A DNA stretch of 45,803 nucleotides, from NCBI GenBank assembly GCA_017478205.1, contig JAFVDZ010000002.1, forward strand, positions 1 through 45,803, read 5' to 3'. Position 1 is the first letter of the stretch. Each line of letters starts with the position of its first letter. The translations under genes and the position numbers were made by a program. The notes below the pieces were generated by a model, which saw only the letters and a program-made list of their open reading frames with translations, had not been told where the DNA came from and ran no database searches. Positions 32,125-34,897 of the stretch are shown here, piece by piece. This DNA is from Spirochaetales bacterium. Its GTDB lineage: Bacteria > Spirochaetota > Spirochaetia > Sphaerochaetales > Sphaerochaetaceae.

Positions 32125-32535
32125 TTAGTTGATCTTAACCTCAATCCTTCTTGGCTGAACCTTTTCCTTCTTAGGAATTGTGATAGTAAGGATGCCCTTG
32201 CTGTAATCTGCCTTGATTGCATCCTCCTCAACACTGTCTGGTAGCGAGAAGCTTCTTGAGAAGGAAGGAGTCATGATCTCCTTAACAAGAACAGTCTCCT
32301 TTTCTCTCTTCTTCTCTTCTACCTTGCAAGAAAGTGTGAGAATGTGCTTATCAACATTGAGCTCGATCTTGTCCTGATCATAGCCGGCAACCTCTGCCTC
32401 GATCACATATTCCTTCTCAGTCTCATATACATCGACTGATGGAATCTTCTTTACTGGGTTTGACCATGCATCAAAAAGGTCATTGAAAATTGGATCGAAT
32501 CCAAGGAATGGGTCTACGTTTCTATAGAATTTCAT
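32125..32535 (-). CDS. Small heat-shock protein Hsp20 (second in operon)
   Basis: A 136-residue alpha-crystallin-domain chaperone that holds unfolding proteins in the cytoplasm. The alpha-crystallin domain runs from about residue 32 (KIPSVDVYETEKEYVIEAEVAGYDQDKIELNV) to SFSLPDSVEEDAIKADYSKGILTITIPKKE, followed by a short tail RRIEVKIN. AAAGGAG precedes ATG 32535. The 19-base gap after the first hsp20 implies co-transcription, so both share the sigma-54-type promoter upstream. The two copies are diverged, suggesting hetero-oligomers or different clients. Confidence 0.95.
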   Translation of the reverse strand: MKFYRNVDPFLGFDPIFNDLFDAWSNPVKKIPSVDVYETEKEYVIEAEVAGYDQDKIELNVDKHILTLSCKVEEKKREKETVLVKEIMTPSFSRSFSLPDSVEEDAIKADYSKGILTITIPKKEKVQPRRIEVKIN

Positions 32536-32554: not shown

Positions 32555-32974
32555 TTATCTGTTGATTGTTACGCTGATCTTCTTAGCTTCCTGCTTTGCC
32601 TTCTTAGGCACTGTAAGAGTCAGGACGCCCTTTTCAAATGCAGCGCTTATATTCTCTTCATCTGCTTCCTCTGGAAGAGTGAATGCTCTATCGAATGTGG
32701 AGCTGTATCTCTCCTTGAGGATGTAGTGTCGCTCTGTAGTATCTTCACTCTTGCTAGAGTTCTTTCCCGCAATGTGGAGCACGTGGTCATCTACATGAAC
32801 ATCAAGCTCCTTTTCATCTACGCCTGGAAGGCTTGCCTTGATGACATACTCATTGTTTGTTTCCTCGATGTCTACAGGTGGAATCTTACCACCCTTGAAA
32901 GTCCAACCATCGAAGAAGGAATCGAGCATCCTCTCAAAACCTGTTTCATTATATTTCTGTACATCGTTTGCCAT
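32555..32974 (-). CDS. Small heat-shock protein Hsp20 (first in operon)
   Basis: A 139-residue Hsp20. It shows KIPPVDIEETNNEYVIKASLPGVDEKELDVHV and FDRAFTLPEEADEENISAAFEKGVLTLTVPK, the conserved alpha-crystallin beta-strands including the GVLTLTVP element. AAGGAGG lies six bases before ATG 32974. About 45 bases upstream is a near-consensus sigma-54 promoter, with tandem repeats a further 80 bases up. No CIRCE element is present, so HrcA control is not supported. Confidence 0.95.
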   Translation of the reverse strand: MANDVQKYNETGFERMLDSFFDGWTFKGGKIPPVDIEETNNEYVIKASLPGVDEKELDVHVDDHVLHIAGKNSSKSEDTTERHYILKERYSSTFDRAFTLPEEADEENISAAFEKGVLTLTVPKKAKQEAKKISVTINR

Positions 32975-33018
32975 ATTCGGCCTCCTTGTAATATCTTTTT
33001 CTTTTGTACCAATATATA

Positions 33019-33034
33019 TGCAAAAGCTGTGCCA
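33019..33034 (-). promoter_or_regulatory. Sigma-54 (RpoN) -24/-12 promoter for the hsp20 pair
   Basis: On the minus strand this reads TGGCACAGCTTTTGCA. It matches the sigma-54 consensus TGGCAC-N5-TTGC[A/T] at all fixed positions, with the GG and GC doublets at correct spacing. Transcription would begin near 33008, about 34 bases before ATG 32974 and its Shine-Dalgarno. It was the only good match I noticed in the window. Confidence 0.78.
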
Positions 33035-33112
33035 AAATAAAATATTTCATTGTATTACAACGATTTGTATTTTCTAGCCAAGAATAGGATAGAGATATGG
33101 AAAGGCATAGGG

Positions 33113-33145
33113 TGTCATTTTGATACACATTGTCAGAACGATACA
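33113..33145. promoter_or_regulatory. Tandem 15-base repeats, candidate enhancer-binding sites
   Basis: Two copies of TGTCA-N4-GATACA lie at 33113-33127 and 33131-33145, 18 bases apart. Each is also an imperfect dyad TGT-N9-ACA. They are about 105-137 bases upstream of the predicted sigma-54 start site, the usual place for bacterial enhancer-binding protein sites, in a gene-free interval. Confidence 0.6.
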
Positions 33146-33186
33146 AAAATTGGGTCAAAATGGGCTTTCATCATCTATCTAAACCT

Positions 33187-33909
33187 TCAAGAACCGGGGC
33201 AAATAGAACCAAGGAACTCTCTTAAGGTCAAATTCACTATCCTCTTGAAATGAATTGTATGGCTTTTTTCACTCACCAGGATACATTTTATTCCTTCATC
33301 AAGGCCAAGCAGTGCAAGTTGCGCTTCATTTTCCCCATAACAAACTGAAAATCTTTCATCAAGTCTTTCTGCATGGAATAAGATTACTCTTCCGACCATC
33401 TCATACTTTACACGAAAACCCAAAGAAAGCAGGTGACGGACAATTAGTACATTTGGATCATCTCCATGATAGAAGTAAGTAAGATAGATATCTCTTTCAC
33501 TCTTACTTATACTGCTGAGAGGAATTACAAGCCCAATTTCTACAAGACGCTCAAATATCTTTCGTACTTTGTAAAAATCCTTGATCCCACTTCCTTTCAT
33601 CATTGCTTTCAGGCTCAAATCTTCTAAAGGTCTTTCCTTTAGAAATGAATAGAGAGAAAGTACACAGGTTGCATTTGCAAAATCTTCCATGATGACCTTT
33701 CTGAAAATTATATGGTCCTCATAGAAGATATCTTCCCCCTTTGTGAACTCATAGACATAGATATAATTGTCTGTGCCAGCTCTGGGGACATTGGCTGTAT
33801 CTATCGAATAGAGCTTCCTCTCTCCATCCTGAGAAATATATCTAAGAGGAGAGACGATTGCTATCTTCTTTGAAAGAGAAATAAGAGAAAGTGCAAGTTT
33901 TTCATCCAT
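33187..33909 (-). CDS. Uncharacterised protein, possibly with winged-helix segment
   Basis: About 240 residues if started at ATG 33909; a TTG at 33927 would add six. I do not recognise the family. There is no signal peptide or membrane helix. The central part, FLKERPLEDLSLKAMMKGSGIKDFYKVRKIFERLVEIGLVIPLSS, has the helix-turn-helix-wing rhythm of a DNA-binding domain, and the flanks alternate strands and helices. GGAGG abuts the ATG with only one spacer base, which is unusually close. It lies upstream of the hsp20 regulatory region on the same strand and diverges from the Rpn gene. A regulatory role is a guess. Confidence 0.6.
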   Translation of the reverse strand: MDEKLALSLISLSKKIAIVSPLRYISQDGERKLYSIDTANVPRAGTDNYIYVYEFTKGEDIFYEDHIIFRKVIMEDFANATCVLSLYSFLKERPLEDLSLKAMMKGSGIKDFYKVRKIFERLVEIGLVIPLSSISKSERDIYLTYFYHGDDPNVLIVRHLLSLGFRVKYEMVGRVILFHAERLDERFSVCYGENEAQLALLGLDEGIKCILVSEKSHTIHFKRIVNLTLREFLGSICPGS

Positions 33910-33969
33910 ACCTCCTTCTACACTCAAAATTTAAATAATGTTTCAAATTGTAGAAATCCACGCCTCTCC

Positions 33970-34066: not shown

Positions 34067-34897
34067 ATGGCTTCTGTTGATGAAAAAATTCAAAAGACAA
34101 TTGATGATTTCACTCTCATGGACAATCTTTTCTTCCACCACTTCTTCGCAGCATGTCCGAAAGGGCTCGAGAAGGTAATCTCGATCTGTCTCGATGATGA
34201 TAAGGTGAAATTGAAAAGCATGACCATAGAGAAGGAAATCACGAACATCGAAGCCCATTCGATAAGAATGGATGCACGAGCTATCCTCATGGATAGAAAG
34301 CACATAGACCTTGAAGTCCAGAATGGTAGTTTCAAAGAGATGAAGAGGAGGGCCAAATTCTATCTTGGTGCACTTGTCTTCAACTCTCTTCCAAAGAATG
34401 AGGATTATACGAACATGCCCGATTCCTATTTCATCTGCATCCTGGACAAGGATTACTGGAAAGGAGGCTATGAGAAGTACGAGACACTGGATAATGTTGC
34501 TTACAAGCAGTCTTTCCCTGAGGTCGATGAGAACCAGTGTCATATTATATACATCAATGGTCAGGCAGACAGTGAGACAGCCATTGGCTATCTTATGAGA
34601 GATTTCAGGTGCACATCATATGAAGATATGTACTATAATGTTCTCAAAGAGAGAATGAGAGATATCAAGAGTCCGGAGGGTAGAAAGGAAATGTATAGTA
34701 AAATCAGAGAAATCTTCAGTGAAGAGATCAAGCAAGGAGTTGAACAGGGAATTGAACAGGGAATTGAACAGGGAATTGTACAAGGAAGAGAACAATATCG
34801 CGATGAAACTATTCAGAAAATGAAAAGAAAAGGCCTGACAAATGAGCAGATATCTAACTTCACTGATATCCCACTAAATATAGTTCAGGCTATTTGA
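34067..34897 (+). CDS. Rpn-family PD-(D/E)XK nuclease / putative transposase-like protein
   Basis: A 276-residue member of the Rpn (recombination-promoting nuclease, formerly PF12784 transposase) family. Features are the N-terminal FTLMDNLFFHHFFA, the nuclease core RMDARAILMDRKHIDLEVQNGSF at about residues 67-89 (D...E-x-Q catalytic arrangement), and RRAKFYLG. Next comes a helical C-terminus with VEQGIEQGIEQGIVQGREQ, then KRKGLTNEQISNFTDIPLNIVQ, a short helix-turn-helix-like end. GGAGG lies six bases before ATG 34067. Such proteins occur in many copies in spirochaetes and gut bacteria. No terminal inverted repeats mark it as an active element. Confidence 0.9.
   Translation: MASVDEKIQKTIDDFTLMDNLFFHHFFAACPKGLEKVISICLDDDKVKLKSMTIEKEITNIEAHSIRMDARAILMDRKHIDLEVQNGSFKEMKRRAKFYLGALVFNSLPKNEDYTNMPDSYFICILDKDYWKGGYEKYETLDNVAYKQSFPEVDENQCHIIYINGQADSETAIGYLMRDFRCTSYEDMYYNVLKERMRDIKSPEGRKEMYSKIREIFSEEIKQGVEQGIEQGIEQGIVQGREQYRDETIQKMKRKGLTNEQISNFTDIPLNIVQAI
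34742..34777 (+). repeat. Three perfect 12-base tandem repeats within the Rpn gene
   Basis: GAACAGGGAATT occurs three times in a row, encoding EQGI each time, with a degenerate fourth unit following. Copy-number change would lengthen or shorten the linker in frame. This repeat is a common property of the protein family, not a CRISPR or replication element. Confidence 0.9.

Follow-up and report, generated by a model that had tools for sequence, protein, structure and literature searches.

The stretch of DNA analysed here (the window; 45,803 nucleotides, contig JAFVDZ010000002.1 of a Spirochaetales bacterium of the family Sphaerochaetaceae) encodes two small heat-shock proteins in tandem on its minus strand. 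The second hsp20 gene begins 19 bp past the first, the tandem pair is kept in several relatives and the two genes are presumed to share one transcript. The features of the locus are:

32125..32535, minus strand: hsp20 gene 2, 136 aa (Pfam HSP20, E 1.7e-22)
32555..32974, minus strand: hsp20 gene 1, 139 aa (Pfam HSP20, E 4.6e-26)
32981..32985, minus strand: Shine-Dalgarno GGAGG of the first hsp20, from the sequence
33019..33035, minus strand: sigma-54 -24/-12 element TTGGCAC-AGCTT-TTGCA, a perfect consensus match, kept before hsp20 in 30/30 family genomes
33112..33126, minus strand: predicted upstream activator site 1 (the strongest), GTATCA-AAA-TGACAC, centre 86 bp upstream of the -24 GG, score 9.0 of 10
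33130..33144, minus strand: predicted upstream activator site 2, GTATCG-TTC-TGACAA, centre at -104, score 7.5
33152..33166, minus strand: predicted upstream activator site 3 (weak), AGCCCA-TTT-TGACCC, centre at -126, score 7.5

Upstream of the first hsp20, positions 33019-33035 read TTGGCACAGCTTTTGCA on the minus strand, which has the sigma-54 consensus TGGCAC-N5-TTGCW with its fixed GG/GC spacing at a gene start. Of the five matches to TTGGCAC-N5-TTGCA in the window it alone is free of mismatches, the remaining four having two each, and it confirms the perfect RpoN match claimed by an earlier sequence-only reading of this DNA. The transcription start near 33008 proposed in that reading is also what the promoter predicts: counted from the C of the -12 GC at 33020, +1 falls on 33008, which would give hsp20 a 5' UTR of about 34 nt before the ATG at 32974. 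CIRCE (TTAGCACTC-N9-GAGTGCTAA) has no match in the window even if up to three mismatches are allowed, in agreement with the same reading, which speaks against membership of the hsp20 pair in the CIRCE/HrcA regulon. Directly upstream of the putative enhancer lies an ORF of 246 aa without Pfam match (33187-33927, minus strand), its 3' end 21 bp from the weak site 3; positions 34067-34897 (plus strand) encode a transposase-like protein of the PD-(D/E)XK nuclease family with a C-terminal QGIEQGIEQG repeat.

The sequence-only reading described the region upstream of the promoter as two copies of TGTCA-N4-GATACA, 18 bp apart, and these are present at 33113-33127 and 33131-33145; the corresponding pattern GTRTC-N4-TGACA has two matches in the window; shuffled sequence gives an expectation of 0.20, and two matches were reached in 3 of 100 shuffles. 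As a functional unit the motif had to be redefined: when relatives are aligned, the operator consensus is a 15-bp inverted repeat, GKGTCA-N3-TGACMC, of which the repeat as first described is one register. NifA-type, CIRCE and PspF explanations were considered and rejected. Site 1 is one of two window positions with a score as high as 9.0 and is identical in the sister species (G069/L095). Sites 2 and 3 are each weak taken singly. The score of site 3 is reached by 7e-4 of window positions, its half-site TGACCC is retained in G069 and it lies exactly 40 bp from site 1 (-86/-126), the spacing usual in relatives. At the position of site 2, G069 reads GTGTCATTCTGACAA, with a score of 9.5. The 18-bp spacing is thus real in the window, but it is not the spacing that recurs in relatives, which is 40 bp; the 18-bp pair amounts to an extra site of the window's species and G069, and a site 2 at this spacing was not seen in other genomes.

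Promoter and repeats are conserved in relatives; the lack of conservation that the sequence-only reading had named as an argument against itself was not found. The sister species (G069/RUI394) has an Hsp20 with 87% identity, TTGGCACGAGCTTTGCA as its promoter and upstream sites at distances equal to those in the window. Among 30 Sphaerochaetaceae genomes, picked by Hsp20 similarity alone, the poorest -24/-12 element upstream of hsp20 still scores 11.2 of 13.4; as these genomes are related, the counts are not independent. Upstream of the promoters of hsp20 and of a sigma factor gene described below there are 83 sites that score at least 8.5 of 10, versus a mean of 0.46 in shuffles, with the scoring consensus derived from these same promoters and the sequences being related. 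The sites lie 65-220 bp upstream of the -24/-12 element, the commonest distance between two sites is 40 bp (20/33 pairs) and the distances to the promoter are periodic at 10.5 bp (R 0.48, n=83). Conserved inverted repeats on one helical face upstream of a -24/-12 element have the features of an enhancer (UAS), and we regard them as such on these grounds. In the genus members G073, G077, G087, G011, G061 and G081 the hsp20 pair is present twice, on two contigs and with equal or nearly equal protein scores; G073 has the promoter and an upstream site at both copies. The doubled pair probably reflects a recent duplication of the whole unit.

A total of 139 family genomes were searched, blind to gene content, for the repeat core GTCA-N3-TGAC followed at 60-90 bases by TTGGCAY-N6-TGCW: 41 places in 35 genomes matched, versus none for the reversed pattern. 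The first 30 places inspected all precede one of two genes: 23 lie before a sigma-70-family gene and seven before hsp20. A match read later (L269) precedes the sigma gene too; another, L268 of G038, is within a coding region with neither hsp20 nor the sigma gene behind it and was discarded as a chance match. When the search was extended to the class (393 genomes), eight further places were found outside the family, and all six that enter the count are on target (hsp20 for L262, L264, L265 and L266, the sigma gene for L263 and L267; G384 and G311 are left out). As the search was fixed to both elements at 60-90 bp, it misses targets with other spacings; the hsp20 site of the window itself escapes the exact pattern, having ATCA instead of GTCA. 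In the window's genome (G000), the sigma gene (G000:C94:14528-15349) has the promoter TTGGCATGAAAGGTGCA and sites at -119 and -159; apart from it and hsp20, no place with both a site and a promoter was found in this genome. A further repeat-like match of this genome, C63:12999, has no promoter in the little sequence left before the contig end. Of the NCBIfam models, rpoS_proteo matches the sigma factor best (278 bits, below the cut-off of 378.7), hence the term RpoS-like.

The window's genome (1.9 Mb, 97.5% complete) has an rpoN gene (PF04552, E 1.2e-52), and absence of rpoN, another possible objection raised by the earlier reading, therefore does not apply. It has exactly two NtrC-type activators with a PF00158 domain: P0001 (C30), a response regulator encoded behind a PAS-type histidine kinase, and P0002 (C31), a response regulator behind a second kinase. 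A third PF00158 match (30.9 bits, within an 868-residue frame) is weak and was not counted as an activator. The proposal made from the window alone, that the hsp20 pair is under sigma-54 control and has upstream enhancers, gains support from the conservation of promoter and sites, from their helical phase and from the presence of rpoN and activators.

The consensus TGGCAC-N5-TTGCW occurs 103 times in the window's genome with at most one mismatch (perfect sites included), versus 10 times for the reversed pattern. Seven sites are perfect; besides the one before hsp20, five were set aside as they are inside coding regions, which leaves C42:26761, an intergenic site without the repeat. This site (L009/L260, G000:C42:26761-26776, minus strand), the only other perfect intergenic -24/-12 element of the genome, precedes a leader with a strong hairpin (110-nt fold, -29.0 kcal/mol) and then an rlmE/ftsJ-like gene, and a different repeat, GTGAATAATTTTCACAC, lies upstream of it. 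It is possibly the promoter of a sigma-54-dependent small RNA or regulated leader and perhaps a target of P0002.

The activator of the enhancer is likely P0001, because genetic linkage, presence and absence across genomes and covariation between recognition helix and operator all point to it, while P0002 fails the same tests. In many genomes the sigma gene and its sites lie about 3-4 kb downstream of the P0001 orthologue, in the order murG, cvpA, holB, kinase, P0001, DinG-like helicase, groES (mostly on the opposite strand), sigma; such linkage of sigma gene and P0001 is absent from the window's genome. Genomes with a TITR helix in P0001 favour GGGTCA-N3-TGACCC and those with TLHR favour GTGTCA-N3-TGACAC (33 G : 5 T versus 18 G : 52 T, Fisher 9e-10; essentially one clade). 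In G006, both promoters have a shifted operator, GTAA-N3-TTAC, and the P0001 helix is TLAKK instead of TLHRK. In G013 and G030 (L287, L292), the gene behind holB encodes an Rrp2-type activator from which the receiver domain and the end of the recognition helix have disappeared, as has the kinase next to it. Both genomes lack hsp20, and the sigma promoter has a perfect -24/-12 element and no operator sites. G005 (86% complete) has the hsp20 sigma-54 promoter, but orthologues of P0001 and of the sigma factor were not found in it.

We consider it very probable that hsp20 has an enhancer-dependent sigma-54 promoter and that P0001 binds the repeats and drives both the hsp20 pair and the RpoS-like sigma gene. 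The alternative closest to this is that the promoter is as described but P0002, with its own kinase, binds the sites and P0001 serves other genes. Most of the family, the window's genome included, does have P0002; this reading is nevertheless unlikely, since the sites are kept in three genomes that have P0001 and in which no P0002 orthologue was found (G042, G069, G010), are gone in G013 and G030 together with the degeneration of the P0001 relative, even though P0002 is intact in G013, and have changed in G006 with the helix of P0002 being ordinary and unchanged; in addition, the linkage is to P0001. The sites could also be bound by a third activator outside the assembly, which at 97.5% completeness leaves some room, for example by a PspF-like protein: such activators are encoded about 9 kb from an hsp20 pair in the genus members G011 (C4), G061 (C17), G077 (C14) and G042 (C15). 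We give this little credit, as the window's genome and the sister species both retain the sites, yet neither yielded a PspF-like gene, and as the sites of the sigma gene are linked to P0001 and not to PspF.

Repressors, too, typically have inverted repeats of such a length as their operators, and the repeats could belong to an unrelated repressor or activator that acts on the sigma-54 promoter or on a sigma-70 promoter that escaped recognition. The position 65-220 bp upstream, the helical phasing and the 40-bp steps, however, fit an activator that acts by looping, and the sites are lost where the activator is damaged and are confined to the two sigma-54 targets, making such a regulator quite improbable. 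Hardly any weight is left for a chance match or relic, with hsp20 controlled by CIRCE/HrcA, sigma-32 or an RNA thermometer: the promoter is conserved in every one of the 30 genomes, there is no CIRCE and the reversed-pattern control was empty across 139 genomes.

With P0001 as the activator, the circuit may operate as follows. An unspecified stress would trigger the PAS-type histidine kinase at G000:C30, which would phosphorylate its partner P0001, an NtrC-type AAA+ response regulator. P0001 dimers would then bind the 15-bp inverted repeats at 33112-33166 and form a ring, and DNA looping would bring this ring to the sigma-54 polymerase parked at 33019-33035; ATP-driven opening of the promoter would lead to production of the two Hsp20 chaperones. 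Via its sites at 40-bp steps, P0001 would also switch on the RpoS-like factor and, with it, a second tier of genes. The computations cover the sites with their conservation, spacing and phase, the set of two target genes, the covariation, and the orthology of the kinase and of the regulator; from these we infer binding by P0001, its phosphorylation, looping, induction by heat or other protein-folding stress and the transcript starts.

The Rrp2-RpoN-RpoS cascade is the virulence switch of Lyme Borrelia, and Borrelia Rrp2 is a textbook oddity: it is NtrC-type and has a DNA-binding domain, yet we know of no site for it. Genome G178 (family f19), which by its size, its gene content and the layout of the bb0763-bb0771 region of Borrelia we take to belong to the Borreliaceae, shares the gene order murG-cvpA-holB-kinase-regulator with the P0001 locus. 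The G178 regulator has 49.7% identity with P0001 and 40% with P0002, and groups with the P0001 orthologues with 100/100 support in the regulator tree. Judged by gene order and tree, P0001 and its kinase are syntenic orthologues of Borrelia Rrp2 and Hk2. The rpoS gene of G178 is about 7 kb from the regulator and has the promoter TTGGCACGATTTTTGCG, with no recognisable operator within 420 bp upstream; the sigma factor described here, a possible orthologue, is 41% identical to Borrelia RpoS, with a very long branch in the sigma tree. Borrelia Rrp2 activates rpoS without an enhancer, with no specific site identified and no binding up to 238 bp upstream (PMC1976401); enhancer-independent activation of rpoS is also the result for which a passage of PMC12472547 cites Blevins 2009, and Rrp2 has been reported to have a role outside RpoN-RpoS that is essential for growth (PMC12472547).

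The circuit described here thus resembles Hk2-Rrp2-RpoN-RpoS of B. burgdorferi in its orthologous kinase and NtrC-type regulator and in the sigma-54 promoter found on the gene of a sigma-70-family, RpoS-type stress sigma factor. It differs in that GKGTCA-N3-TGACMC arrays are conserved in the spirochaetes analysed here, whereas Borrelia is enhancer-independent, and in that hsp20 is a putative second direct target. Enhancer-independent activation does not appear to apply, with conserved arrays at both targets, and the circuit is therefore a variant and not the Borrelia form. Given the published enhancer-independence of Borrelia Rrp2, it looks like the ancestral, enhancer-dependent Rrp2-RpoN-RpoS switch, which would also drive Hsp20. 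The binding sites so far missing for a spirochaete regulator of the Rrp2 type are most probably those described here. On balance we favour the view that Rrp2-RpoN-RpoS is an ancient stress circuit of spirochaetes, in which the ancestral Rrp2 bound 40-bp arrays of GKGTCA-N3-TGACMC and directly controlled just the RpoS-like sigma factor and Hsp20, and that the enhancer was lost in Borrelia and in an independent reduced lineage (genus g13). Loss of the enhancer in Borrelia would explain the puzzling enhancer-independence of its Rrp2, and G013/G030 apparently represent a second move to enhancer-independence besides Borrelia.

A conserved operator for Rrp2 orthologues provides a specific DNA sequence that can be tested on proteins of the Rrp2 family, would tie the Rrp2 cascade to protein-folding stress via Hsp20 and can serve as a signature by which sigma-54/RpoS circuits are recognised in the sequences of uncultured spirochaetes. 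G006 and G013/G030 amount to natural experiments with a joint change or loss of recognition helix and operator.

Sigma-54 enhancers, Rrp2-type regulators and sigma-54-driven small heat-shock genes are already known kinds of elements; what appears to be new against the literature searched is an Rrp2-family enhancer with a direct set of two targets that includes hsp20, as the open-licence literature yielded neither an Rrp2-type enhancer nor a sigma-54-driven hsp20 in spirochaetes. NtrC, likewise a response-regulator activator, has paired inverted-repeat sites upstream of the -24/-12 element at glnA, unlike the present sites in operator sequence and in spacing (40 bp in the spirochaetes here). 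The E. coli ibpB gene is a small heat-shock gene with a sigma-54 promoter; this is what it has in common with the hsp20 pair, while phylum and chaperone lineage are different, and this analysis yielded no evidence that activator or operator are the same. Sigma-54 promoters have been predicted at small heat-shock genes (COG0071, IbpA) of Planctomycetota and Bacteroidota, in which a chaperone cluster is enriched, and the passages of PMC12316311 that report this make no mention of hsp20, an enhancer or an activator for spirochaetes (PMC12316311). The spirochaete Leptospira interrogans, which is without RpoS and RpoH, has a sigma-54 activator with upstream sites too, EbpA-RpoN; EbpA differs from P0001 in being GAF-type and in its targets, which are amtB and lipoproteins (PMC12655853).
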